Origin: Pelosinus fermentans DSM 17108
GTDB lineage: Bacteria > Bacillota > Negativicutes > DSM-13327
Assembly: GCF_000271485.2 (NCBI RefSeq)
Contig: NZ_AKVN02000001.1
Span: 62,001 to 126,000, forward strand
DNA: 64,000 nt
Direction: 5' to 3'
Part shown: positions 1 through 44,401 of the stretch, piece after piece
Position numbering within the stretch: position 1 is the first letter of the stretch
How the letters are laid out: each line of letters starts with the position of its first letter
Notes under the pieces: generated by a model
Told to the model about the DNA's origin: nothing
Database searches by the model: none
The model's input: only the letters and a program-made list of their open reading frames with translations
Made by a program: the position numbers and the translations under genes

Positions 1-573
1 ATTATACTTTGCCCAAATAGCAGCCTCAGCATTACGACTCACTGCACATTCTATACCACTTTGCTGCAAAATTTTTACCAATTGGTGAAGATTTGTTTCA
101 GCTCTTGGGTCTAAGTTTCCACTTCCAACAATGATCTTATTATATTTGTCCTTTTGCTCAATGATTCCCGGAGCAACCGCTTCTGACGTCACGTAAATAC
201 AACCATCTAAAACAATACCCTTGCCGAGTAAAGCCTTAAGTTTACTACTGCTGCCCACACCATTAAGTAACGGTATAACCAACGTATTATCTCCAACCAC
301 AGGCATAACGGACTGATAAGCCGTTTCAATGGAATAGCCTTTTACACAAACAAATACTGCGTCAACAATGCCAATCTCAGATCCATCTTGCGTTACCATT
401 CGAGGCTGTACAACAAAAGAACCATGTATATCACTATGCACCTGCAATCCTTTCGTACGTATCCTTTCCAGTGTTGCACCCCGTGCAATATAAGATACAT
501 CTTCTCCTGCTTTTGCCAACAGCCCGCCGATATATCCGCCGATTCCTCCTATGCCAATCACTGCTAATTTCAC
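1..573 (-). CDS. 2-dehydropantoate 2-reductase-like (ApbA/PanE) oxidoreductase, 3' end cut by window
   Basis: This is the N-terminal 191 codons of an NADPH-dependent ketopantoate-reductase-family enzyme; the C-terminal helical domain lies outside the window. The Rossmann glycine motif GIGGIGGYIG is at residues 7-16 after an MKLAVI strand. Segments resembling ApbA follow (YIARG near residue 32, FVCVKGY near 80, PLLNGVG near 103). I chose the GTG at 573 because AAGGAG lies nine bases upstream, while the in-frame ATG at 582 abuts that site. Family members reduce ketopantoate for pantothenate synthesis or act on other 2-keto acids; no pan genes are adjacent, so the substrate is open. Confidence 0.85.
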   Translation of the reverse strand, partial: MKLAVIGIGGIGGYIGGLLAKAGEDVSYIARGATLERIRTKGLQVHSDIHGSFVVQPRMVTQDGSEIGIVDAVFVCVKGYSIETAYQSVMPVVGDNTLVIPLLNGVGSSSKLKALLGKGIVLDGCIYVTSEAVAPGIIEQKDKYNKIIVGSGNLDPRAETNLHQLVKILQQSGIECAVSRNAEAAIWAKYN

Positions 574-600
574 TTCCAACATCTCCTTTTAAAAATCATA

Positions 601-1551
601 CTAGGAATTCCCACAAGCAACATTTTTAATCGGTGAAGCCGTGCAATTGATTATGATAATACTAATCAAAATCATGACCCCACCTATAATCTGGGCAGGA
701 AAAATAGTTTCTGCTAAGAAAAAATGACCGCTAAGTACACCAATAATAGATATCAGGCTTAAATAAAGTGTTGTGATCGTAACATCAAGTTTACTTAATG
801 CATAGATATATAAAAAATAGCCGAGAGCAGAGCAGCAAATCCCAAGGTATAAAATATTTCCCAGGGCATTCCATGAAAATAAATGCCATTGATGATATTC
901 AAGCAAGGAAAGAGGAATTAAAAACAGGGTCCCAAATAAAGTTTGATAGGTAGTCAAAAATAAACCAGAGTACTTACCATTTAGTGATTTATTAAGCAGT
1001 GTATACAAGGACCAGGAAATCATAGCCCCAACAATACAGAGATTTCCAATAAAAGTCTGAGAAGAAAAGTCTAGTTGACCATTGGCTGTAATTGCCAAAT
1101 ACGCTCCAGCCATCGCACCGATAATTCCCATGGATTGGATCAGCGGCAATTTAGTCTTAAATACAAGCACATCCAATGCAATCGTAAGAATTGGAAGGAT
1201 CGCCGTAATCAGGGCAGCGCTTGACGCTGTGGTGAGACTAATTCCCGTATTCTCAAGATAGAAATATAGAGTTATGCCGAAGAACCCTGCAATAGTCATT
1301 TTCCCCCAATCACAGCGTTGTAGCTTGGCAGCTGGTTCTTTCTTCTTTGTGATTGAGAATAAAATTGTGCTGGCAATCAAGAAACGTAACAAGGCCAATG
1401 TAATCGGAGGTACTTCGCTGACTGCGGTTTTGATACTGATAAATGACATCCCCCACAGGGTGACTGTGACAAGCATCGCCAGATTGGCAAGAACTTTATC
1501 AGCCATAAGAAATTTCATATTGTTTTTAATTTTTTCTAAGAATAATTGCAT
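601..1551 (-). CDS. EamA/DMT-family transporter (10 TM)
   Basis: Drug/metabolite transporter superfamily permease of about 316 residues, likely exporting a metabolite or amino acid. Two EamA repeats are visible. The first starts at VTVTLWGMSFISIK and contains the typical PP(I/L)TLALLRF signature. The second has MISWSLYTLLNKSL and ends with the GHFFLAETIFPAQIIGG segment found in the last helices of the family. The open frame extends to 1686, but the upstream part is charged and lacks a ribosome site. The ATG at 1551 follows GGAGG at 12 bases; ATG 1518 is the alternative. It lies 28 bases downstream of the ApbA-like start and may be an independent unit. Confidence 0.85.
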   Translation of the reverse strand: MQLFLEKIKNNMKFLMADKVLANLAMLVTVTLWGMSFISIKTAVSEVPPITLALLRFLIASTILFSITKKKEPAAKLQRCDWGKMTIAGFFGITLYFYLENTGISLTTASSAALITAILPILTIALDVLVFKTKLPLIQSMGIIGAMAGAYLAITANGQLDFSSQTFIGNLCIVGAMISWSLYTLLNKSLNGKYSGLFLTTYQTLFGTLFLIPLSLLEYHQWHLFSWNALGNILYLGICCSALGYFLYIYALSKLDVTITTLYLSLISIIGVLSGHFFLAETIFPAQIIGGVMILISIIIINCTASPIKNVACGNS

Positions 1552-1784
1552 TGATTTGTTATTCCTCCAAAGCGTGAAATTACTTCTCCAAAAGAAGCTA
1601 TATAGATGAGATAAATGATCATAATCACTCTTAAAGTCACTGATAGACTTATGTACTAGCATATTAAAACGAATTGCCCTTGTCAATAAAAGAGGTTGCT
1701 ATTATCAACTATTTTCATACTGCATTTCCGATACGATAAAAAACTCCCACACTATTAAAACATAACACCATCGCGATTATAAAA

Positions 1785-1817
1785 ATAAAAAAACCACCTA
1801 CCCGGAAGATAGACGGT
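1785..1817 (-). terminator. Rho-independent terminator of the zinc-ribbon microprotein
   Basis: On the minus strand ACCGTCTA pairs with TAGGTGGT (8 bp including two G-U pairs) around a 9-base loop, followed by seven T. It lies just downstream of the stop at 1822. Confidence 0.7.
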
Positions 1818-1821
1818 TCTT

Positions 1822-1929
1822 TTACTTATTGGATATTTGCACTTTGACTTTTTTGCCGCAATTAGGGCATTTCCCCCTGCCTTGAGGACTAAGAATAACG
1901 CTGCATCCGCATTGGGTATGAACCAACAA
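1822..1929 (-). CDS. 35-residue zinc-ribbon microprotein
   Basis: A short gene reading MLVHTQCGCSVILSPQGRG then KCPNCGKKVKVQISNK. It has a CxC pair (residues 7 and 9) and a CPNCG knuckle (C21, C24), the four ligands expected of a small zinc ribbon. The start is TTG at 1929, eight bases after a perfect AAGGAGGTG site, and a terminator follows the stop. The strong ribosome site, coherent cysteine pattern and terminator support a real gene despite its size. Function is unknown; such knuckles bind zinc and often nucleic acid or protein. It is monocistronic on present evidence. Confidence 0.7.
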   Translation of the reverse strand: MLVHTQCGCSVILSPQGRGKCPNCGKKVKVQISNK

Positions 1930-1949
1930 GTTCAACACCTCCTTATTTG

Positions 1950-2583
1950 GAGATTACTAAATAGCATCTGCTATTGGATTTATTATACTACACAATCATC
2001 AATAATGTTGTTAGCATCTTGTTAATTTTATAAACGACAAAACAGAGCGATATAGACATGGATGCTAGCGGTAGTGAATTTCTCAGCCGCTTCTATACCG
2101 ATCTGCCGTTTTACATTTTAAAATAAATATGTGACAAAATTGTGACGAATTAGAGTAGGCTATTTAAATTAAAGATAGGATGACTAAACATAATGTTATT
2201 ATGGTAACTTCAAAAAATTTAACAACAAATACTTAGTGACCTTACCAATTAAATAAAGCAAGATTTGGATCATTGGATAAATCATTATGCAAAACAAATT
2301 TACTTTTATCAGTTTTTTTGAAGGAAAAACAAAAACTCCGACGAATTTTTACAATAAAACCCTTTAATTACATTTTTATACTCAATATCCACTTTATAAT
2401 AATTTTATCTTTTTGGAAAATCATCGGAAACTAGATTGCCCTATAACTTATGACAATAATACTCTTTCTTATCCTGCCTGTGATCTTATGTGTCCATCGC
2501 TCTGAAAAGCCTATCTTAAAATCAGGCAGAATTTTTTTGGCAATTGTCGACAAACTGCTACAATTTACTGGGAGGAATGATTT
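1950..2583. other. AT-rich intergenic region, no gene seen
   Basis: About 630 bases between the microprotein and the carbamoyltransferase fusion gene. No convincing ORF, RNA gene or strong hairpin was recognised. It must hold the promoter of the 2584 gene, whose ribosome site GGAGGAATG begins near 2571. Confidence 0.5.
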
Positions 2584-5500
2584 ATGGGGACTTCAAATGA
2601 GCCAATGTATCATTTAGGAATTAACCTAGGACATGACCGTTCAGCAGCAATCGTAAGAAAAGGAAAAATCGAAGTAGCAATACAGCAAGAACGATTAGAC
2701 AGGACAAAAAACAGTATAGGTTTTTTACACCAATCATTAGGAGATTGTAGAAACATTCAGATTCCCCATGAAGCAATTCAATATTGTCTGCGAAAATACG
2801 ATATTAAAATAAATGATCTTTCCAGTATTACAGCAAATATGCCGGGAATAGATTATTCAAAAGATATCTTGCAAAGAATCTTTCCAAAAGAATTATCTGA
2901 TAAAATCTTTATGATTCCAAGTCATCATTTATCTCATGCTTACACAGCATACTGGCCATCCGGCTTTGAAGAAGCAATTATTCTTGTTGTCGACGCTTCA
3001 GGCAGCACTGATAAAGAGGGGTTTACAGAATCATATAGCTTGTATATTGCAAAAGGAACCGAGATAAAATTATTGCATAGTGAAAAGGTAAAAGCATATT
3101 TGGCATCACTTTCCACTCTTGGTTCTATCTATGAATTTATTACAAAATTAGCTGGTTTTTCAACTACTATCGGAAAAAACTTGGCAATACCAGAAGCGGG
3201 AAAACTTATGGGATTAGCTCCCTATGGAACCTATTGCGATCAATGGCATGAGTGGCTGCATACTAAATCGGAAAGTTACAGTATTGATATTTCTGCCTAT
3301 GACTTATTTCTGGAGGTGGAAGCACTAAAAAAATTACATGATGATGGTAAAGGAAAAGCTTACCTTAGACCATATATTGTAGATTTGGCATATAAAATTC
3401 AATCAGAATTGGAAAAGGCATTGTTACATATCGTTGAACTTGCAATTGAGCAAACAAACTGCAAAAAGCTTTGCTGCGCAGGAGGAGTGGCTTTAAATTC
3501 AGTTGTCAATTATAAACTTTTAACGAAACTTAATTTAGAAGACATCTTTATTTTCCCTGCAGCTGGAGACGCAGGTATCGCTGCAGGGAATGCACTTTGG
3601 GCATATCATAGCATTGAAAAGGGTAACCTTCGCCCCAAATTGGAGAAAGCAGATCTTGGTAGAGAGTATACTGAAAATGAACTCGAATCAGCTCTTCATA
3701 AGTTCGCAAATGAAATCATTATAGAAAAACTTTCTTATCAAGAAATGGTTGCAACTTGCGCATCGCAGATGTCCAAAGGAAATATCATTGCAAGGTTTGA
3801 AGGCGGATCAGAATTTGGCCCCAGAGCTTTAGGGCATCGATCCATCATTGCTGATCCAACTTTTAGAAAAATAAAAGACATCATGAATTATAGAGTGAAA
3901 TTCAGAGAAGCCTTTAGGCCATTTGCACCAGTCATACCGTTGGAAGAAATATCTACAATATTTGAACAAGCTACAGCATGCCCATTCATGCTTTTAGTTT
4001 CTAATATCAAAAAAGAATACCACGATCAAATTCCTTCTGTTACTCACCATGATGGTACAGGAAGGGTTCAAACAGTTACATCGGAACACAACACTTTTTT
4101 TTATGATTTGTGTTACAACATGGTTAAAGAAAGAGAAGGCTGTCCTGTTATTTTAAATACAAGCTTCAATATAGCTGGTCAACCAATTATTGAAACTCCA
4201 GAAGAAGCAATCAGCACTTTTCTTTCAACCGATATTGATTTTCTTAGTCTTGAAGATTATTGGATAAGGAAAAGACACTCACCTGTATTAAGTTATGAAG
4301 AGCACTTGGCCCAATTGCAGGAACCTGAGTATCCTCATGGTTTGGCAGAAAAAAGAATCGATGTTACTGACTTAATGAGGAAGCTAGATGAAGCAATTTT
4401 TTATGGCAATACAAAGAACTCATTTTGGTCAGCAAATGAATTAAAAAAGATTTCTTCCCAAGGAGCAATATATAAAGAAACATCTGTTCTCTTTGCTAAG
4501 AATCCACTTGGCAATCACTTTTCAGCACAATTAGGTAAAGATCTGCTACTCTTATTGGATCCACTGGGAATGTCAGAAATAAGGGATTTAACTGATCTAA
4601 TTCCTTCAACATATTATACATATGAAGAAATACGCCTAATAATACTTTGCTATAAAGGCACAGAAACTGAGCTTGAAGAATTGAGATTAGAGTTAAATTT
4701 ACCTGAAAAGGCATTTTGGGGGAAATTAGAGTGGGCTTCCAAACAGCTCAAGAGATACAAATTGCCTTATAAGATACTTAGAAGAGAAAACGACAGTATC
4801 AATAGTAAGCCTGCAAATATTACTCTGGGACAGTTTACCGATGAATCCTTTCGTTTATACAATACGCTTAAACAATTTAATGATAACCTTACACTGCATG
4901 GCTATTTGGAAAGTAATATTTGTAAATTGCTTGATATTGAGACCCTTCAAAGTATCGAACCAACTTATATCCATTACTATAACAAGCATAAACTTGGCCA
5001 CGGAAAGCTAGAAGACTTGCTCAGATTATTTTTGTTGCGCGATTCTTTAAGCAAAGAAAGAATTATAGAGATACTTGGAGAGTATTGTTTCCAGAATCTT
5101 TGCAACTTGGGGATCATTATTCCAAGGGGAAATTGGTTTGCCTCAAGAGTTGATATCTATTGTGTTAATGATTTTTTTATTGCTACCGACCATCGATACA
5201 TGATTTATGAAGAAGACATGATTCAAGAGAATCCAGTGATGTATATTGGGATGGATAGTTTAGGTTTGGTACATACGGTACCGAAGTATCCATCAAAAAA
5301 TACACTTGATTTATGTACAGGTTCCGGCATCCAGGCAATTACAGCCAGCTGCTATTCAAAGAAAGTTGTTGGGATAGACATCAATCCGCGTGCTATACGT
5401 TTTGCCAGATTTAATGCACAACTAAATGGAATATCAAATATAAAGTTTGTTGAGGGTAATCTTTACGCACCTATCGCTAATGAAAAGTTTGATACTATTT

Positions 5501-6393
5501 TAGCCAATCCACCTTTTGTTCCAAGCCCCGACAATAACTTAGATTTTAGAGATGGAGGCAAAAATGGCGAAAAGTTATTAAAAGTAATTATCAAAAATGC
5601 TGATTTACACCTGAGCAATGAAGGAAGGCTTTTTATTGTTTCTGATTTAGTGAATGTTCACCATTATGAGGAGAAATTGAACCAATGGTGGGGAAAAACA
5701 AAGGCAGATAAGTTAGTACTAACTACTGCTGATAGAAATGATATTTTATTTTCTATACCTCATTGCCATTACCCTTTTAAGCAGACAATTGAGCAATACA
5801 ACAATGAATTGGATATGTGGATACAGAATTTTAATTACTCAAATATATCGTCAGTAAACTTTGGATACATTTTAATTAAAAAAGGCGGCAATAGCTTTTA
5901 TTCAAAATCTATTTATAATCCTACTCAAGGGATTAATAAGAAGGTAACCGAATATTTTGAACAAATTAATATGCTGCACTCGGTAGAGTGGGAGAACTTA
6001 TCTCTATACCTGTCCGATGACCTGCATGTAAAAGCGGACTATTCGTTTAGTACTGCTAATGATAAAACATTCTATTTATATTCAACAAATCAATTTTATA
6101 GTGAATATTTAATTGATAAAAATTTATATAATATTCTGGAAAGAATTGCTGAAGAAGAACCAACATTAGAAGAACTTGCTGATAAAAATTATGTTGTTGA
6201 CCTAATCTATAAAGGCATAGTTAAAATTAAACTTAAAAAGCAGTACCCTAACTATTCTGATTGCTATGAATGCAAGGAAGTTGCTGCTACCTTAAGTCAT
6301 TCTGTGAATTCAGAAACCCGCAAAGACATCCACATTAAGGAGTTTCAAACAAAAACAACACCAACATGTCTTACATCCTATATAAGACAATAG
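2584..6393 (+). CDS. Carbamoyltransferase (NodU/CmcH/TobZ family) fused to a HemK-like class I methyltransferase
   Basis: A 1269-residue multidomain enzyme. Residues 8-590 are a full O-carbamoyltransferase: Kae1/TobZ-like metal site SHHLSHAY (113-120), DASG (137-140), CAGGVALN (298-305), GGSEFGPRALGHRS (407-420), RPFAPV (445-450) and LNTSFN (524-529). The family makes carbamoyl-adenylate from carbamoyl phosphate and ATP and transfers the carbamoyl group to a hydroxyl. Residues 600-860 show no recognised motif and look partly helical. Residues 905-1060 form a SAM-dependent methyltransferase with LDLCTGSGIQ (908-917), acidic GIDINPRA and catalytic-type NPPF (975-978), as in HemK/PrmC-like enzymes. 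Residues 1060-1269 are unassigned. The start follows GGAGG. No biosynthetic partner genes are adjacent, so the product is unknown; a tailoring role in a secondary metabolite or glycan is inference. Confidence 0.88.
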   Translation: MGTSNEPMYHLGINLGHDRSAAIVRKGKIEVAIQQERLDRTKNSIGFLHQSLGDCRNIQIPHEAIQYCLRKYDIKINDLSSITANMPGIDYSKDILQRIFPKELSDKIFMIPSHHLSHAYTAYWPSGFEEAIILVVDASGSTDKEGFTESYSLYIAKGTEIKLLHSEKVKAYLASLSTLGSIYEFITKLAGFSTTIGKNLAIPEAGKLMGLAPYGTYCDQWHEWLHTKSESYSIDISAYDLFLEVEALKKLHDDGKGKAYLRPYIVDLAYKIQSELEKALLHIVELAIEQTNCKKLCCAGGVALNSVVNYKLLTKLNLEDIFIFPAAGDAGIAAGNALWAYHSIEKGNLRPKLEKADLGREYTENELESALHKFANEIIIEKLSYQEMVATCASQMSKGNIIARFEGGSEFGPRALGHRSIIADPTFRKIKDIMNYRVKFREAFRPFAPVIPLEEISTIFEQATACPFMLLVSNIKKEYHDQIPSVTHHDGTGRVQTVTSEHNTFFYDLCYNMVKEREGCPVILNTSFNIAGQPIIETPEEAISTFLSTDIDFLSLEDYWIRKRHSPVLSYEEHLAQLQEPEYPHGLAEKRIDVTDLMRKLDEAIFYGNTKNSFWSANELKKISSQGAIYKETSVLFAKNPLGNHFSAQLGKDLLLLLDPLGMSEIRDLTDLIPSTYYTYEEIRLIILCYKGTETELEELRLELNLPEKAFWGKLEWASKQLKRYKLPYKILRRENDSINSKPANITLGQFTDESFRLYNTLKQFNDNLTLHGYLESNICKLLDIETLQSIEPTYIHYYNKHKLGHGKLEDLLRLFLLRDSLSKERIIEILGEYCFQNLCNLGIIIPRGNWFASRVDIYCVNDFFIATDHRYMIYEEDMIQENPVMYIGMDSLGLVHTVPKYPSKNTLDLCTGSGIQAITASCYSKKVVGIDINPRAIRFARFNAQLNGISNIKFVEGNLYAPIANEKFDTILANPPFVPSPDNNLDFRDGGKNGEKLLKVIIKNADLHLSNEGRLFIVSDLVNVHHYEEKLNQWWGKTKADKLVLTTADRNDILFSIPHCHYPFKQTIEQYNNELDMWIQNFNYSNISSVNFGYILIKKGGNSFYSKSIYNPTQGINKKVTEYFEQINMLHSVEWENLSLYLSDDLHVKADYSFSTANDKTFYLYSTNQFYSEYLIDKNLYNILERIAEEEPTLEELADKNYVVDLIYKGIVKIKLKKQYPNYSDCYECKEVAATLSHSVNSETRKDIHIKEFQTKTTPTCLTSYIRQ

Positions 6394-6724
6394 AATATCG
6401 TAATATCCACAGGATTGATAGAAAGCGAATGACCTTCTAGCAATCGGTGTATAATGGGTAAGTTTCTCCAATAATGTTAGAATGAGTTTTTTCAAGTATA
6501 TTTCAAAAACAGCATGATCACTAAACTTTGTAACATATAGACACCGCTTAGAAAGCTACCTGCTTTATTTGGGAGGCATTTTAAAATTATAACCTTGCTT
6601 ATCAAATGAAGCGCTTAATTTATATTTGTTTCAATTAACTGCTTCTAACAATGGCTCGCATTGTTGGGCAAGATTTTTTGTACTTTATATAATTTTGCAT
6701 TAGTATAATATTTGGAGGTTTCTT
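6394..6724. other. Intergenic region without recognised genes
   Basis: About 330 AT-rich bases between the fusion enzyme and the histidine kinase. No ORF with a ribosome site and no clear terminator was seen. The kinase ribosome site GGAGG is at its right end. Confidence 0.45.
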
Positions 6725-8494
6725 ATGTTACAACAACTTATAAAAAAATTAATCATGACTGAACAATTTAAACTTCATTCCCAATTTAAAATTATCACTA
6801 TTGTAAATAAAGACCTAAAGTGTCTTTATGTAAGTGAAATGGGAGCAAAATATCTAGGTTTAAAACCAATTGATATGATAGGTAAAAATTGGAGGGATCT
6901 TAATAGTGACTTACCATCTAAAGATTTTGAGCGATTGGATGAGAAAATAAAAGAGGTATTTAATACGGGGAAAATTGTATTTGATACTTATATAAGTATT
7001 TCTAATATAGAGGGACAACAGCATTCCTTTGAATATTTTATAAATCCAATTTTTACACCTAGCGGAGACATTGAAGCAGTTATATGCGATATTACGGATA
7101 TTACAGAAAGCCAATTATCAGAGATACCCATTTCTAATCAAATTACAGAAATCAGCGAGTTAGTTAAATTATGCCCAATAGCTATTTTCATAGTTGATAA
7201 AGAAGGAAGAATACTTACTGTAAATAAAAAATGTATAAAAGATTTTTCCTCTAGCCAAGCTGAGCTTATTGGTAAACAATATAGATTTGGCTATTCTGAG
7301 ATTAAAAATGACGAATCCGAGATTGCCAAAGCGTTGATTGAAGTAGAAACCAGCCAAGAAAACTTATCTTCATCAGAAAGAAAGTATCAAATAAGTAAGC
7401 AAGCGAATTTTGAGGGAAAGAGCCAGGAAAAACAACAACAGCTCTTAAACCAATATTTAACCGAAAACAAAAAACTAAACCAGTTAATTGAGTTATGCCC
7501 TTTGGGAATTGTTTTATATGATAATAAAGGTAATGTTATCGCATTAAATAAAGCTCATCGTGAACGTATATCAAATTTCCAAAAAGAAGAGTTTCTAGGT
7601 AAGCCAGGACGATATCTGTTAGAAGCACTAGGATTAGATTGGGAAAATTCACCTTGTAATCAAGCATTAAAGGGAATAGAAACTTTAGATTATTATCTGA
7701 AGAACGCATATGGAAATTGTTATTTACTGAATGCAATTCCACTTCGTAATTACGAGAATATGATTATTGGTGCCATGACAATCATCCATGATATTACTGA
7801 ATATGAAAAACTCAAGGAAGACATGACAAAACTTGACCGCTTAAATTTGGTAGGAGAAATGGCAGCTGGAGTAGCCCATGAAATCAGAAACCCTATGACA
7901 GTGATAAAAGGCTATCTGCAATTTCTTAGTAAAAATGTTTCAGCCAGTATGGTCGAACAGTTTTGTCTTATTTTATGTGAACTAGAACGAATCGAACAGA
8001 TTATTACTGATTTCTTATCTTTGGCCAGAAATAAGCTCGTAGAGAATAAAAAACAAGACTTAAATGCTATCATAAAAGGAATTATTCCACTTATAGCAAC
8101 AAACGCAATGGAGCGAGGTATTGAGCTGAAAGTAAATCTAACCGAAGGGCTACCTCATTTCTTACTAAATGAAAAAGAAATTAAGCAATTGTTTTTAAAT
8201 CTTGTAAGGAACGGCATCGAAGCTATGGATCATCACGGAACGCTAATTATTGAGAGTATCCTTGAGGGTGATATGGTATCCTTATCTGTTGCAGATTGCG
8301 GTTGTGGAATCTGTAAAGAGAATCAGGAAAAAATATTTGATCCATTTTTCACTACAAAGGAAAGCGGTACTGGGTTGGGACTTGCTGTTTGTGCAGGAAT
8401 CGTACGACGCCATAATGGGACTATAGAGGTACAATCGGAAGAAGGTAAGGGAACCCGATTCATAATTACTTTCAATACTTTAGACGCAAGATAA
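6725..8494 (+). CDS. PAS-domain sensor histidine kinase (KinA/KinE-like architecture)
   Basis: A cytoplasmic kinase of 589 residues with no membrane segment. Three PAS-like regions are visible (about 20-125, 145-200 and 250-365; the first and third end in DITDIT or DITEYE), followed by a short linker. HisKA has phospho-acceptor His385 in AGVAHEIRNPMTVIKGYL. The HATPase has an N box NLVRNGIEAM near 490, a DCGCGI G1 box, FFTTKESGTGLGL and a final GTRFIITF. The LVGEMAAGVAHEIRNP block resembles sporulation-phosphorelay kinases of Bacillus and Negativicutes. No response regulator is adjacent, so it is an orphan; feeding Spo0F or Spo0A is inference. GGAGG precedes the ATG. Confidence 0.9.
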   Translation: MLQQLIKKLIMTEQFKLHSQFKIITIVNKDLKCLYVSEMGAKYLGLKPIDMIGKNWRDLNSDLPSKDFERLDEKIKEVFNTGKIVFDTYISISNIEGQQHSFEYFINPIFTPSGDIEAVICDITDITESQLSEIPISNQITEISELVKLCPIAIFIVDKEGRILTVNKKCIKDFSSSQAELIGKQYRFGYSEIKNDESEIAKALIEVETSQENLSSSERKYQISKQANFEGKSQEKQQQLLNQYLTENKKLNQLIELCPLGIVLYDNKGNVIALNKAHRERISNFQKEEFLGKPGRYLLEALGLDWENSPCNQALKGIETLDYYLKNAYGNCYLLNAIPLRNYENMIIGAMTIIHDITEYEKLKEDMTKLDRLNLVGEMAAGVAHEIRNPMTVIKGYLQFLSKNVSASMVEQFCLILCELERIEQIITDFLSLARNKLVENKKQDLNAIIKGIIPLIATNAMERGIELKVNLTEGLPHFLLNEKEIKQLFLNLVRNGIEAMDHHGTLIIESILEGDMVSLSVADCGCGICKENQEKIFDPFFTTKESGTGLGLAVCAGIVRRHNGTIEVQSEEGKGTRFIITFNTLDAR

Positions 8495-8512
8495 AGCAAC
8501 TTTTTTATTAGA

Positions 8513-9709
8513 TTAACAAACAGTAAACTTTTCTTTATATATCGTATAATAAACCCAAAATCCGTTCACTAGCAACAACGCCGCCGTAACGAAAAATACA
8601 TAACGAATACCAAACGTGCCTGCCATTTGTCCACCTAGTACCGAGCCTAGAAATACACCCAAGAATTGCGCGGATTGATTATAGCCCAAAGCTCGACCTG
8701 TGATGAACTGTGGTGTACTTTGCGCAATAAGACTGTTAACGGAAGGTAATAAGCCTGCCGTAGCCAGCCCCAGCAAAAAGCGAAGTACTCCCAGCTCCCA
8801 AGGATGCTCTACAAAGGCCTGAGGAATGAACAATACCCCCGCTACAATCAATGCTGCTAATAACACCTTTTGGGGCCCAATCCGATCTGATATTTTTCCA
8901 AGCCGGGGAGCCGAGATTATACTTGCCAGACCGGAAGCAGCAAAAACCGCACCTGAAATGAGAGCAATATGATTCGTACCTGAAGATAATTGAGCAATGT
9001 AGACAGTAATAATCGGCTGTATGGACATGAGTGAAAGCTGCATAATCAAGGTAGTAATGAACAAACACACCGTTATCTTATGATTGGGAAGAAGCTCCCA
9101 AACCTCATGAAAGTTAAGGTTGCATTGCTTGTTTATAACAATCTTATTTTCCTTAATAAATAAGAAAGATGCAATAAAAGCAATAAAACACATACAGCCA
9201 ATTGCGATAAAGGTTGCTCGAAATCCTATTATTTCTGCTAAATACCCGCCAAATAAAGGACCAAGTAAGGTACCTCCGACTTGCCCGCTAAAAAGGATGC
9301 CCATTGCCCATCCCACTTGTTCATTTGGTGTTTGCGTCGCAACTAATGTAATGACTGCCGATTGAAAACCGGAAAGGGCTCCTTGAAAAATCCGCAAACC
9401 CGTTAGCTGATACACATTGTCCACAAACCCCATACAAGTCACGATTATAGATAACCAGAGACTTGCTCTTAGGATCATAGATTTTCGTCCATACTTGTCT
9501 GCAAACTTACCCCAAATAGGAGCAAAAATTGCCAAGCTTATAAAGTTACTCCCGAAAACGATTCCCGACCATTTGGCAATCGCCGCTGCACCATGGACAC
9601 CGAGATGTTCAATATAAAGGGGCAGCGACGGAGCCATCTGACTCATACCCGAAGAAACAATAAACACTGCAAACCAACAGACATATAAATTTTTCTTCCA
9701 AATCGCCAT
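8513..9709 (-). CDS. MFS efflux transporter, MdtG-like
   Basis: A 12-TM major facilitator of 398 residues, probably a drug:proton antiporter in the inner membrane. Motif A (GKFADKYGRKS, residues 67-77) follows TM2 and an equivalent (GKISDRIGPQKV) lies in the second half. The N-terminal FIVSSGMSQMAPSLPLYIEHLG pattern, split here by a short N-terminus, is typical of MdtG/YvgX-type multidrug exporters. The RIFQGALSGFQSAVITLVAT segment of TM4-5 resembles antiporter motif C regions. It converges with the histidine kinase 18 bases away. AGGTG precedes the ATG. The substrate cannot be read from the sequence. Confidence 0.85.
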   Translation of the reverse strand: MAIWKKNLYVCWFAVFIVSSGMSQMAPSLPLYIEHLGVHGAAAIAKWSGIVFGSNFISLAIFAPIWGKFADKYGRKSMILRASLWLSIIVTCMGFVDNVYQLTGLRIFQGALSGFQSAVITLVATQTPNEQVGWAMGILFSGQVGGTLLGPLFGGYLAEIIGFRATFIAIGCMCFIAFIASFLFIKENKIVINKQCNLNFHEVWELLPNHKITVCLFITTLIMQLSLMSIQPIITVYIAQLSSGTNHIALISGAVFAASGLASIISAPRLGKISDRIGPQKVLLAALIVAGVLFIPQAFVEHPWELGVLRFLLGLATAGLLPSVNSLIAQSTPQFITGRALGYNQSAQFLGVFLGSVLGGQMAGTFGIRYVFFVTAALLLVNGFWVYYTIYKEKFTVC

Positions 9710-9811
9710 AAAGCACCTGCGTTATTCTGCATTCTATTTTAAAGACTACTTTTAGTGTACTCTTCTCTATTCAATTAAATTCCCAGGTTTCCTTCACAAA
9801 AAGATCACCAT

Positions 9812-9853
9812 TGTGGATAACCCTGTTAATAAGGTGTGAATGTTTGTGGATAA
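9812..9853. promoter_or_regulatory. Two tandem DnaA boxes
   Basis: Exact TGTGGATAA boxes occur at 9812-9820 and 9845-9853, 33 bases apart (about three helical turns) in the same orientation, in the gap upstream of the MFS gene. The first is followed by CCCTGTTAATAAGG, similar to the sequence beside the boxes near 47630. Binding by DnaA is inferred from the consensus only. Confidence 0.5.
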
Positions 9854-9896
9854 CTTAATTACAACCTTATAGACGGTTCCTAAATCTAACGATATT

Positions 9897-10541
9897 TTAC
9901 CTGAGATTTTCTTTTTTAAAACCAATAACGAGCACCATGCTAACCATACACCAATAAACCATAAGTTCAGACCATTCTTCCAGCACCTGTGAATAAGGCT
10001 GTAATATCAGGATTAAGTTTCTTTCAAAAATAAGCTGTGAAGCTATGGCAGCCAGGATTAATAAAATTCCATCAACAGCCGATATACACAGTTTTTCTTT
10101 CATATTACCCCAGTTAAAATTACGCCATAGACCGGTCAGCGTGGTAATGATAATAAGAGTGAGAGCTGGATAGACGTATTGACCATACCACACTGCACGA
10201 ACGGAAGGAAACATAGGTCCCTCTGGTCCAGTGCTGACTGGATCAAAAAATACCCGTCCCCAACTTAGTTCGCGCCCCACCATGAGCAGCCAGACAAGTA
10301 TCGACCACAGCCACAGGTTCCGCATTTGTATATCATCCCAATTGCGGCGTGCCGCCAACCAGGATACAATTGCCCCGACAATCAGGATAACCACTTGCGT
10401 GTTTTCTATCGGACCATTTTCCCAGCCCCACCACCCTGGAAGAAAAAGACCAATGGGAATCAGCAACGCTGCCAATAGCACAGATACCCCAGTTGATGGG
10501 AACAATCGCCAAGTAAGTAGTTGTTTATTTGGGATTGACAC
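9897..10541 (-). CDS. Multi-pass membrane protein of unknown function
   Basis: About 214 residues with six predicted hydrophobic segments, the first at LFPSTGVSVLLAALLIPIG. Two loops carry conserved-looking polar motifs (WGWENGPIENTQ and GRELSWGRVFF), suggesting a structured periplasmic or active face. I do not recognise the family. The open frame reaches 10580, but the GTG at 10541 has AGGAG ten bases upstream. A GREL(S)WG motif occurs in some uncharacterised bacterial membrane proteins. It lies alone between the DnaA boxes and the L,D-transpeptidase gene. Confidence 0.7.
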   Translation of the reverse strand: MSIPNKQLLTWRLFPSTGVSVLLAALLIPIGLFLPGWWGWENGPIENTQVVILIVGAIVSWLAARRNWDDIQMRNLWLWSILVWLLMVGRELSWGRVFFDPVSTGPEGPMFPSVRAVWYGQYVYPALTLIIITTLTGLWRNFNWGNMKEKLCISAVDGILLILAAIASQLIFERNLILILQPYSQVLEEWSELMVYWCMVSMVLVIGFKKENLR

Positions 10542-10785
10542 TAGGCACCCTCTCCTCTGACAAAAAAATGAGATATACATTCTTAGGTAGTTGGGCTTTC
10601 ATACTACTGCCATGAACAGACAGCTTTCTAAAGTAATCTTCATTCTACGTGTTACACCTTGGAAAATGATTTGTGACAATGACAATGATTTAGATTGTGA
10701 TAATGATCCCTTGCCTCTATATGTTCTCTTCTTGAACCAAAAATGTACTCTTGCATAGAATAAATTTGAAGGAGATGAGCAACCA

Positions 10786-11127
10786 ATGAAAAAGCATATT
10801 GCCGTAAATCTTACCACTTTTCGTGCTTCTTATTATGAAGATGATAGGTTAATCAAAGAATATTCCGTAGGTATTGGTAAAGCCGCTACACCTACCCCGC
10901 CAGGAAATTATCAGATTATCGAAAAGCTGATATTTGAAAAGATAGCAGATGTAGACCTTGGCTCCCGAAGATTGGTCCTATCGTCTGATAAAACATGTCT
11001 GCATGGCTCATGGAATGGTCCGGTAGAAGGTTATGTCTCTGGCGGCTGTGTTCGAATGTATAATCAGGATATTGAAGAGTTATTTGAAAAAGTCGAAATT
11101 GGCACATCCGTAATTATGATACCATAG
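10786..11127 (+). CDS. Small L,D-transpeptidase (YkuD domain)
   Basis: 113 residues consisting of little more than a YkuD catalytic domain. The signature is His73 in CLHGSWNGP and SGGCVRM with catalytic Cys88 and Arg90. The family forms 3-3 peptidoglycan cross-links or attaches proteins to the wall. This protein has no signal peptide or LysM domain and starts MKKHIAVNLTTFRASYYEDD, the substrate-strand start seen in compact YkuD proteins. Lacking an export signal, it may act in the forespore/mother cell or be misassigned as a wall enzyme; that is inference. The ribosome site is GAAGGAG. Confidence 0.85.
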   Translation: MKKHIAVNLTTFRASYYEDDRLIKEYSVGIGKAATPTPPGNYQIIEKLIFEKIADVDLGSRRLVLSSDKTCLHGSWNGPVEGYVSGGCVRMYNQDIEELFEKVEIGTSVIMIP

Positions 11128-11172
11128 TCATATCTAATATTGTTCATAATTTTTGAAATGATCATAATGAAA

Positions 11173-11210
11173 TTGAGCATGCAAGATCATTGTCATCTCT
11201 GCATGCTCAA
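11173..11210. terminator. Bidirectional terminator between convergent genes
   Basis: An 11-bp perfect inverted repeat (TTGAGCATGCA ... TGCATGCTCAA) with a 16-base loop and AT-rich flanks. It separates the L,D-transpeptidase (+) and AraC (-) genes. Confidence 0.75.
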
Positions 11211-11221
11211 ATTTATTACGA

Positions 11222-12088
11222 TTATTTAGAGGAAAAATCAGAAATAAGATGTTTTCTATACTTTCCTGGAGACATGCCTATCGTTTTAGTAAAAATCAAA
11301 TTAAAGTAATTGGGATTGTCATGTCCTATCATGGCGGCTATTTTTGCTACGGAGAAATTTGTATTAATTAATAAGTTCTGTGCTTCACCAATCTTTCGAT
11401 TGATAATGTACTGCATCGGAGAATATCCTGTTTTTTTCTTAAATGAATGTATAAGATAATACTGGCTTATTCCTAAATCCTTAGATAAAGATTTGATACT
11501 TAATTTATTTAGAAAATTATCATCAATGTATTTTTTTATTCTTTCTCCTAGTTCAAATTCTTCTTCTGTCATTTCTTCTTTAGATAAGTCAACTAACCTA
11601 ATTAATATTGTTATAAGGCTTAAAAGAAGATAGTTTCCAGTTTCTTCAACACCCTTTTTATTTGAAAAGATTTCTGAATACATAATTTCAAAGATCTTCT
11701 CAATCGTGCTGAAATAATCACCACTATGTATTATGGGTCTGACATCATTCCCAATCAGAAAATTCCTTTCTAATCCTCTTATCTTTAAATCGGTAAAACC
11801 ACAAACATAGGTACTTATCGTAGCTTTCGGATTAGAACGCTCATCATGAAGCACGCCTTTATTATAAATAAGGATATCACCTTTTCGAGTTTCATACTTT
11901 CTGTTTCCGATTGTATAGGTTCCAGACCCCGCTTTGATCAGAACAACTTCCACCATATCATGATGCATATGCATGATTCTTGGAAACAGATTATCGTCCT
12001 GTTCAGCTTTACACACATGTAATAGTTTGGGAATATGATTATTTTCAAAAATTGATTTATAGTCGTTCTTCACAAAGCACTGAATCAT
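11222..12088 (-). CDS. AraC-family transcriptional regulator with N-terminal cupin
   Basis: A 288-residue regulator. The N-terminal half is a cupin sensor (PRIMHMHHDMVEVVLIKAGSGTY region, then RKGDILIYNKGVLHDE). The C-terminal 95 residues hold two helix-turn-helix motifs: LSIKSLSKDLGISQYYLIHSFKKK and the closing IAAMIGHDNPNYFNLIFTKTIGMSPGKYRK, both diagnostic of AraC/XylS. The ATG at 12088 is nine bases from AGGAG; two in-frame ATGs upstream overlap that site. It is adjacent to the sugar cluster (12.4-17.4 kb), whose control it may exert; the ligand is probably a sugar or polyol, by inference. Confidence 0.88.
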   Translation of the reverse strand: MIQCFVKNDYKSIFENNHIPKLLHVCKAEQDDNLFPRIMHMHHDMVEVVLIKAGSGTYTIGNRKYETRKGDILIYNKGVLHDERSNPKATISTYVCGFTDLKIRGLERNFLIGNDVRPIIHSGDYFSTIEKIFEIMYSEIFSNKKGVEETGNYLLLSLITILIRLVDLSKEEMTEEEFELGERIKKYIDDNFLNKLSIKSLSKDLGISQYYLIHSFKKKTGYSPMQYIINRKIGEAQNLLINTNFSVAKIAAMIGHDNPNYFNLIFTKTIGMSPGKYRKHLISDFSSK

Positions 12089-12399: not shown

Positions 12400-13628
12400 C
12401 TAGAATACTGACGTCTCCCCCGCCTTTTCCTGGAACATCTCTTCCAATTGTTCCAACGTTTTGTCCTTGGTTTCCGGCATGAATAATCGGATAAATAGTA
12501 TTGCGCATATACCGAGACCAACAAAAACAAAGAACGTTGAGGATAAACCAAATTTACTTAACAGTATCGGGAAGCTAAATCCTACAGCAAAATTTCCTAT
12601 CCATTGGAAACACACGGACAGCCCCATACCGGTGCCACGCATACGTAAAGGGAATATTTCTGAACACATGAGCCAAGTAATTGGCGAAACACAACTTTGC
12701 TGGAACGCTAAAAAAGTTACAGTCAAAGAGAGTACGAGATAAGGCAACAACGCTGAAGTACTCATCACATTAGAGATAATGGCAATCCCCAACATACATG
12801 ATGTTGTCCCAACTAAACCAGCCGTCAACATCGAGCGCCTTCCTATTTTACCTACCATATACAATCCTAAACCAGCACCAAGGACAGAAATCAAGCCATT
12901 GCCAATATTGCCTATCAAAGCTGCCTGTGTGCTAAAACCAGATTGTACCAGTATTTGTGAACCATAAAACATGATTGAATTTACACCGGTTATCTGCTGC
13001 GTAATCGATAATCCTATACCAAGCATCAACAGGCGGCGTATCCACGGTTGCTTTAAGTCACTAAGCACAAATTTCTTGCAATGGCTCTCTTCGCTCAGTA
13101 AACCTTGAATTTCATTGAGTTCAGCTATAGCCTGTTCTTTTGTGGAACGGGTTTTTTGTAATACATTCATTGCTTCACTTATCCGGCCTCTGGCTACAAG
13201 CCAACGAGGACTTTCATCGGTTTTCAGCATACCAATAAACAAGGCCACAGCAGGCAGAGCTGAGACACTATGCCGAGAAAAAAGCGGCAAACAATCATCA
13301 CGTTAGCACTTGGAGCTGCTGTACACCCCAGGGTAGCAAAGAAAAATAGTATAGACAGATATAATAGATTTTTCCGTCTGCCAAGACTATCAGCCAACCG
13401 TCCGCCAATAAGACACCCTAATGCAGCACCCAAGGCAATGGCCCCAACAACCGCACCTTCTAGTACCGGTGTCAAATTAAGCTGATCAGGCAATGCCATA
13501 AAAGGCAGGGCACCGTTAACAACACCAGTATCATAACCAAATAGTAAAGAGCCAAATGTAGCCACCAGACCTATTAATATAACATATTTTTTCGGATCAA
13601 CTGACTCTTGCTTTACCGATCCATTCAT
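12400..13628 (-). pseudogene. Sugar-porter MFS transporter, internal deletion and frameshift
   Basis: Two overlapping frames together read as one sugar:proton symporter (IolT/XylE-like). The first (13628-13224) carries FGYDTGVVNGALPF, GRLADSLGRRKN (motif A) and ends at CRFFLGI. The second (13290-12400) resumes at SALPAVALFIGM and carries TDESPRWLVARGR, QQITGVNSIMFY, EIFPLRMRGTGM and FMPETKDKTLEQLEE. Intact porters have roughly 65 residues between these points (TM4, the conserved PAERRG loop and TM5), and these are absent. The junction near 13270 also changes frame, so the product ends at residue 134. This is a pseudogene or an assembly error. Its position indicates that it once served the neighbouring sugar enzymes. 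Confidence 0.88.
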
Positions 13629-44239: not shown

Positions 44240-44401
44240 TTCTCTTCCTCCATTTAGATAAAAGTTCGAAAACTCTCTCTATTCTCTTTTTTCTAAATTT
44301 ATCTACAGTAATATATTCTATGTAAAATTACATAATCCTCCAAATATTACATGAATTGTTCATAACTTTTTATCTAATTTGTCGGATTCCATCAGAATAA
44401 A

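Follow-up and report, generated by a model that had tools for sequence, protein, structure and literature searches.

We describe a two-gene cassette of Pelosinus fermentans DSM 17108, whose first gene fuses an O-carbamoyltransferase to a methyltransferase and whose second encodes a PAS histidine kinase. The cassette lies in the window, the 64,000-nucleotide stretch analysed here (contig NZ_AKVN02000001.1, positions 62,001 to 126,000). Both halves of the fused protein belong to known families; what is new is their pairing with the kinase in a cassette, a sigma-H-type promoter and a conserved C-terminal tail, and these features, with the cassette borders, go beyond a preliminary description of the same DNA. 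A molecule bearing both carbamoyl and methyl groups is typically an antibiotic or a signal, and the enzymes that add these groups are normally separate and encoded in scaffold-building clusters. A fused pair with a sensor kinase and a sporulation-type promoter on a two-gene cassette suggests a compact system for a signal or toxin. We propose a tailoring and sensing unit in which a single acceptor would be carbamoylated and then N-methylated, at a time set by sigma-H and with the kinase as partner; we give this reading a probability of roughly 0.6.

The fused gene is one uninterrupted frame, opening with ATG and free of internal stop codons, in which Pfam recognises three domains:

2584..6393, forward strand: fused carbamoyltransferase-methyltransferase of 1269 residues (open reading frame and Pfam)
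2839..3597, forward strand: N-terminal, Kae1-like carbamoyltransferase domain, residues 86-338 (PF02543 Carbam_trans_N, E 3.1e-33)
3760..4272, forward strand: C-terminal, YrdC-like carbamoyltransferase domain, residues 393-563 (PF16861 Carbam_trans_C, E 2.1e-61)
5266..5703, forward strand: class I methyltransferase (MTS) domain, residues 895-1040 (PF05175, E 9.4e-19), with NPPF encoded at 5506-5517

PF02543 and PF16861 both match above cut-off, as expected of an O-carbamoyltransferase of the NodU/TobZ/GdmN type. The closest solved structures to this half are GdmN (over residues 10-569), the novobiocin carbamoyltransferase and TobZ. Its motifs, in the numbering of the window protein, are HHxxH (114), VxDASG (135), EFGPRALGHRS (410), VKFREAFRPFAP (438), HxDGTGRVQ (488) and LNTSFN (524), and the methyltransferase half contributes LDLCTGSG (908) and NPPF (975). 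The likeness to GdmN, NovN, TobZ and NodU covers the whole 560-residue carbamoyltransferase, checked motifs included. Unlike these proteins, the window protein adds a 700-residue extension with the methyltransferase, and no macrolide, aminocoumarin, aminoglycoside or Nod-factor genes were seen near its gene. Nor does it classify as NodU proper, scoring 114 bits with NF041651 against an equivalog cut-off of 1000.

At the sequence level, both enzyme families are present with intact motifs and the fusion occurs in two bacterial orders. The preliminary description had read an O-carbamoyltransferase and a class I NPPF methyltransferase in one 1269-residue frame, which the Pfam domains and motifs confirm, and had predicted a bifunctional enzyme tailoring by carbamoyl and methyl transfer, which the sequence supports well. 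Its suggestion of a tRNA-like acceptor fared worse: nothing speaks in favour, and a TsaD-like role in tRNA modification was rejected on a weak TsaD match below that model's cut-off. It had also raised the possibilities that catalytic residues are lost across orthologues or that an artefact joins two genes. Every catalytic motif checked, in both halves, is intact in all four full-length orthologues. Moreover, P. fermentans JBW45, P. propionicus and G444—a genome of another family and order—encode the same domain order at near-equal length (1267-1269 residues over the four genomes), which rules out a sequencing artefact or frameshift.

The fusion is rare and scattered, its full form occurring in 4 of 300 genomes of the class. 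Within the family (10 genomes, the window's own included) there are four matches, three of them full-length and one a fragment, and all fall in Pelosinus (class Negativicutes), a genus represented by 8 genomes. The JBW45 and P. propionicus proteins are 90% and 89% identical to the window protein. The fragment, in genome G009, comprises residues 1-184, and the neighbouring gene there also begins at a contig end. When the 300 class genomes were searched with the methyltransferase half (E up to 1e-12), nine matched: four full fusions, a single free-standing frame (G514, about 498 residues) and four short frames of 248-294 residues. The fusion in G444 is 81% identical over the entire protein and is found in 1 of the 28 genomes of that order. 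A phylum search with the whole protein (398 genomes, E up to 1e-60, two candidates scored per genome) returned four, namely the window's own genome and three with the carbamoyltransferase only. Among plasmid and phage records, none reaches 80% coverage of the query, and a scan of viral contigs, which detects close relatives only, found none. Phage carbamoyltransferases exist, but with no phage record reaching that coverage an origin from phage was set aside.

The second gene and the borders of the unit are as follows:

6725..8494, forward strand: PAS histidine kinase of 589 residues, with three PAS stretches, HisKA and HATPase_c (Pfam)
2155..8500, no strand: cassette without counterpart at the corresponding locus of the closely related genome G004, whose flanks match at 93-96% (blastn)

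The mean hydropathy of the kinase over 19 residues peaks at 1.5, so that it lacks a strongly hydrophobic segment and appears soluble. It adjoins the fused gene in all four full-length cases, G444 included. Within the eight genus genomes, its matches at E up to 1e-150 are confined to the three that hold the full fused gene. The borders were set by comparing window positions 1-12000 with the G004 locus (L085): matches cover only 1-2154, 8501-9891 and 9893-11218, and G004 has a different, transporter-like frame at the cassette position. The guanine-plus-cytosine (GC) content of the cassette is below that of its flanks in both hosts (33.7% versus 38% in the window; 36.4% versus 44.2% in G444). In the 20 kb read from G444, the other frames of at least 100 residues are unlike the window genes that flank the cassette, and two of them partly match other window genes, one a kinase at 24% and one a gene at 37-39 kb. 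No repeats of at least 10 bases were found at the cassette ends in the two stretches compared. Because the cassette is missing from G004, is low in GC in both hosts and keeps its gene pair amid differing flanks in G444, we infer that the two genes have moved horizontally as a unit.

The preliminary description had noted that no biosynthetic genes adjoin the fused gene, and indeed no scaffold-making genes were seen among its window neighbours. No protease, exporter or separate peptide gene was seen in the cassette, and by eye none of the small peptide genes next to the pair is similar across all four genomes. The promoter element is overlapped by two short frames, each similar in three of the four, as expected from conserved DNA. 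A search of window positions 1500-9000 for RNA elements and riboswitches gave two matches, both far below gathering scores. As a separate observation, a PAS kinase of genome G008 (L087, 6679-8157) shares 48% identity with that of the cassette, with no fused enzyme in the genome; this kinase gene adjoins the counterpart of the flanking major facilitator superfamily (MFS) gene.

Upstream of the fused gene lies a promoter element:

2320..2348, forward strand: sigma-H-type promoter, a perfect match to RNAGGAWWW-N11-RNNGAATWW, 235 nucleotides upstream of the ATG

The spacing of sigma-H promoters is 11 bases. Their hexamer consensus, RNAGGAWWW and RNNGAATWW, is taken from the accessible part of PMC8510167. 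Matches to the full pattern number two in the window against 0.08 expected, and 41 in the window's own genome against 5 for a reversed control. Moreover, the element stands 167-242 nucleotides upstream of the start in all five genomes with the fused gene or its fragment. Thirty of the 41 matches were inspected; 24 have a downstream frame, one of which looks by eye like SpoIIAA, itself among the classic sigma-H targets. A second perfect sigma-H-type promoter in the window (44313-44341, reverse strand) lies 73 nucleotides upstream of a 475-residue stretch of a frame that looks chemoreceptor-like by eye.

Spo0A boxes were considered as a control of the cassette and rejected. TGTCGAA precedes the kinase in G444 but not in Pelosinus, and TGACGAA at window position 2143, which has upstream counterparts in JBW45 and P. 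propionicus, is outside the cassette border and is also present in G004. The gap between fused gene and kinase in G444 (L033) has the Spo0A-box-like TTTTGTCGAATTT upstream of the kinase, which was not seen in the Pelosinus counterparts.

How might the unit work? In carbamoyltransferases of this family, carbamoyl-adenylate is made by the YrdC-like half, and a hydroxyl receives the carbamoyl group in the Kae1-like half. In the fused protein, the YrdC-like domain would use carbamoyl phosphate and ATP to form carbamoyl-adenylate, and the Kae1-like domain would carbamoylate a hydroxyl of the acceptor. Methyltransferases with NPPF or NPPY usually target a planar nitrogen (in PrmC, that of a glutamine amide), and the fused NPPF enzyme would hand the methyl group of S-adenosylmethionine to the acceptor, most likely on nitrogen. 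An attractive case would be the nitrogen of the newly made carbamate; its chemical closeness to the glutamine amide of the PrmC reaction is the reason why we propose that one acceptor is first carbamoylated and then N-methylated. Sigma-H would turn the gene on as cells enter stationary phase or sporulation, and the adjacent soluble kinase would be part of the same unit, probably feeding a phosphorelay, with a presumed link to spore formation. Since neither a scaffold gene nor a peptide gene common to the four genomes lies beside the pair, the acceptor would be a molecule common in the host cell or else the conserved tail of the fused protein itself.

Two further comparisons support the proposed unit. 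The closest solved structure to the methyltransferase core, the gentamicin N-methyltransferase GenN (PDB 5tyq), has NSPT where the fused protein has NPPF, and it has no carbamoyltransferase part. In Mycetohabitans rhizoxinica, a carbamoyltransferase gene overlaps the gene of an NPPF methyltransferase, and a non-ribosomal peptide synthetase (NRPS) gene comes next.

Several points weigh against the proposal. The literature on N-methyl carbamates gave no relevant paper for the idea of methylation on a carbamate nitrogen, and the gentamicin enzyme acts on an aminoglycoside. Most of the other sigma-H matches that were read by eye are not classic targets. The G004 genome is 83% complete, with a 135-base run of N near the right border of the cassette, and G009, in which the contig ends inside the fused gene, shows no kinase match. 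Finally, related PAS kinases are numerous (55-78 first-look candidates per genome), and the cassette kinase could serve another role. Searches of the open-access literature yielded no description of this fused protein together with tail, kinase and promoter.

Between and beyond its Pfam domains the fused protein has four further regions:

4291..4803, forward strand: region without a family match, residues 570-740 (no significant Pfam or NCBIfam match)
4876..5130, forward strand: DUF7059-like N-terminal part of the methyltransferase, residues 765-849 (by hhalign; PF23186 alone gives 0.046, below cut-off)
5704..5982, forward strand: methyltransferase-family extension, residues 1041-1133 (aligned with free-standing methyltransferases)
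5983..6231, forward strand: possible winged helix at the DUF7782/PqqD-like place, residues 1134-1216 (position and weak alignment only)

Of the families seen, the methyltransferase is closest to DUF7059-MTS-DUF7782, which is common in actinobacteria. Residues 765-1133, the DUF7059-like part among them, align with three free-standing members (hhalign E 9.9e-38) from Nonomuraea, Tsukamurella and genome G514, a Gemmatirosa relative having been left out. The likeness consists of this alignable stretch and the NPPFV motif; the difference is that the three compared stop at the position of the winged helix and are not joined to a carbamoyltransferase. The Tsukamurella relative has DUF7059, MTS and DUF7782 (1.7e-30), with PqqD at 2.7e-4, below cut-off; the Nonomuraea relative has DUF7059 and MTS and no DUF7782 match. 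The earlier label 'HemK-like' fits the NPPF motif but not the scores, which fall short of the HemK/PrmC cut-offs (TIGR03534, 74 versus 199.1 bits; TIGR00536, 68.7 versus 115.5 bits). Similarly, two stretches (about 600-860 and 1060-1269) had been called unassigned, with a domain search suggested for both. The profile comparison over 765-1133 now accounts for 170 of those 471 residues, about a third, whereas residues 570-740 still match nothing in Pfam or NCBIfam and have no counterpart in the C-terminal part of a Deinococcus carbamoyltransferase. Residues 1134-1216, at the position held by the PqqD-like domain in the Tsukamurella relative, are outside the stretch aligned by hhalign and gave no direct domain-model match. 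The fused enzyme could offer a functional handle on these methyltransferases.

The protein ends in a tail set behind a linker:

6232..6339, forward strand: variable linker, residues 1217-1252 (25 of the 74 columns before the tail identical in four orthologues)
6340..6390, forward strand: conserved C-terminal tail EFQTKTTPTCLTSYIRQ, residues 1253-1269 (16 of 17 positions identical in four orthologues)

The consensus of the tail is EFQTKTTPTCLTSYI[RK]Q, and its identity exceeds the rate of the preceding 74 columns with P 3e-7. Five threonines, one serine, one tyrosine and one cysteine are among the 17 residues. Windows of 17 residues that are equally conserved are found elsewhere in the fused protein (174 of 1254), so the distinguishing trait of the tail is its isolation behind a variable linker, not its level of conservation. 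It is absent from the three free-standing methyltransferases compared, all of which end before its position. Over the four genomes, third-codon identity at identical residues is 0.69 in the tail and 0.60 overall; third positions about as conserved as elsewhere point to selection on the peptide. Within the three Pelosinus genomes, the tail DNA is identical at 50 of 51 bases (third positions 16/17, against 799/1047 in the remainder of the gene), and this near-identity leaves some room for a role at the DNA level, which we disfavour. A search of the 300 class genomes with the tail (E up to 0.5) gave eight matches, the four full-length orthologues and four weak ones (E 0.006-0.35) that are not above chance for that many genomes, and a search of plasmids gave none; a wider family of such peptides was set aside. 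The TTPTC codon pattern matched elsewhere in the genome no more often than a reversed control (4 versus 4) and was set aside too.

The strongest alternative, which we consider quite plausible though short of even odds, makes the tail a docking or folding element—binding the kinase, for example, or closing the active site—and the acceptor a small host metabolite. Tail, enzyme and kinase occur together in all four full-length cases, and conserved tails after linkers are common in proteins. Less likely is that the enzyme tailors a spore or cell-surface glycan late in growth, as NodU does Nod factors: the NodU/GdmN/TobZ-type domain and the sigma-H-type promoter would fit, but no glycan genes were seen in the cassette and the NodU match is far below its equivalog cut-off.

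The tail might instead be the substrate, a core like that of a ribosomally synthesized and post-translationally modified peptide (RiPP). The possible PqqD-like region would present it through the linker, and after carbamoylation and methylation it would be cleaved to give a signal, with the PAS kinase as partner. As described in the accessible part of PMC10070186, the crocagin RiPP pathway uses a carbamoyltransferase (CgnI) and an N-methyltransferase (CgnL) on one RiPP-derived scaffold; these are separate proteins with a separate precursor, likened here by description and not by sequence comparison. RiPP recognition element (RRE) domains fused to carbamoyltransferases were reported in 2025 (PMC12710340, accessible part), and borosins of types I-III, according to the accessible part of PMC11285071, have the precursor fused to the methyltransferase, a precedent for a core behind such an enzyme. 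Two of seven contexts of carbamoyltransferase relatives also hold radical-SAM genes. Together, these four lines suggest that the tail could be a built-in substrate, as do its conservation and isolation behind the linker, its lack of counterpart in the three free-standing methyltransferases and the absence of any substrate gene from the cassette. The possible likeness to borosins (OphMA) lies in a peptide at the C-terminus of the methyltransferase (PMC11285071, accessible part). The fused protein does have a conserved peptide at the C-terminus of a modifying enzyme, though equally conserved windows are common in it, but its methyltransferase is of another family: the matches are MTS/HemK-like, with no borosin-type model among those listed, so that it falls outside the borosins and a modified tail, the borosin trait, is putative at most. 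Against a substrate tail, moreover, the cassette encodes neither a protease nor an exporter nor a separate peptide, radical-SAM genes are missing from five of the seven contexts, an RRE fold found no model match and would lie outside the hhalign alignment, and the core is invariant. Conserved tails may equally be docking or folding elements, 174 of 1254 windows are as conserved, and 50 of 51 identical bases in three Pelosinus make a DNA-level role conceivable. We regard a substrate tail as improbable. An all-in-one peptide signal system, in which carbamoyltransferase, methyltransferase and their own 17-residue substrate tail would act at the onset of sporulation with a dedicated cytoplasmic kinase on a mobile 6-kb cassette, is more doubtful still. 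A chance fusion of two ordinary genes without joint function is hardly credible: each half exists alone elsewhere, but all checked motifs, promoter, kinase and tail are kept at 81% identity across two orders.

The seven contexts were those of carbamoyltransferase relatives in Mycetohabitans, Streptomyces NBC_00998, Metabacillus, Deinococcus CP1, G120, G384 and G163; radical-SAM genes stand beside the relative in Deinococcus CP1 and G120. In Deinococcus radiodurans CP1 (L076, 3974-12586), two radical SAM genes flank a small gene and are followed by a 703-residue carbamoyltransferase, TldD/PmbA, one more uncharacterised gene and an MFS gene, a row that resembles a RiPP-type cluster. G120 (L071, 2210-11948) has four radical-SAM-matching frames, a PseC-like aminotransferase and the carbamoyltransferase together, the listed matches to named maturases being below NCBIfam cut-offs. 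Phenazine-type genes surround the Streptomyces relative, and a 2-oxoglutarate/iron (2OG-Fe) oxygenase and an MFS gene the one in Metabacillus; the G384 and G163 contexts are not telling. Huimycin was set aside as a parallel, its carbamoyltransferase gene lying outside the seven genes found sufficient in the accessible part of the source.

On Mycetohabitans rhizoxinica pBRH01 (L016, 15013-31484), the carbamoyltransferase and NPPF methyltransferase genes immediately precede an NRPS frame of 4512 residues, together a candidate cluster for a carbamoylated, methylated peptide. The pair resembles the fused protein in its overlapping genes and NPPF motif, and differs in that the genes are separate, precede an NRPS gene and show 32% identity over half of the query; no kinase adjoins among the listed genes, and a gene for a PAS protein is found some 7 kb upstream.

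Further along the window (12400-13628, reverse strand), two overlapping frames resemble, by eye, the two parts of a single sugar-porter MFS transporter whose gene may be broken.

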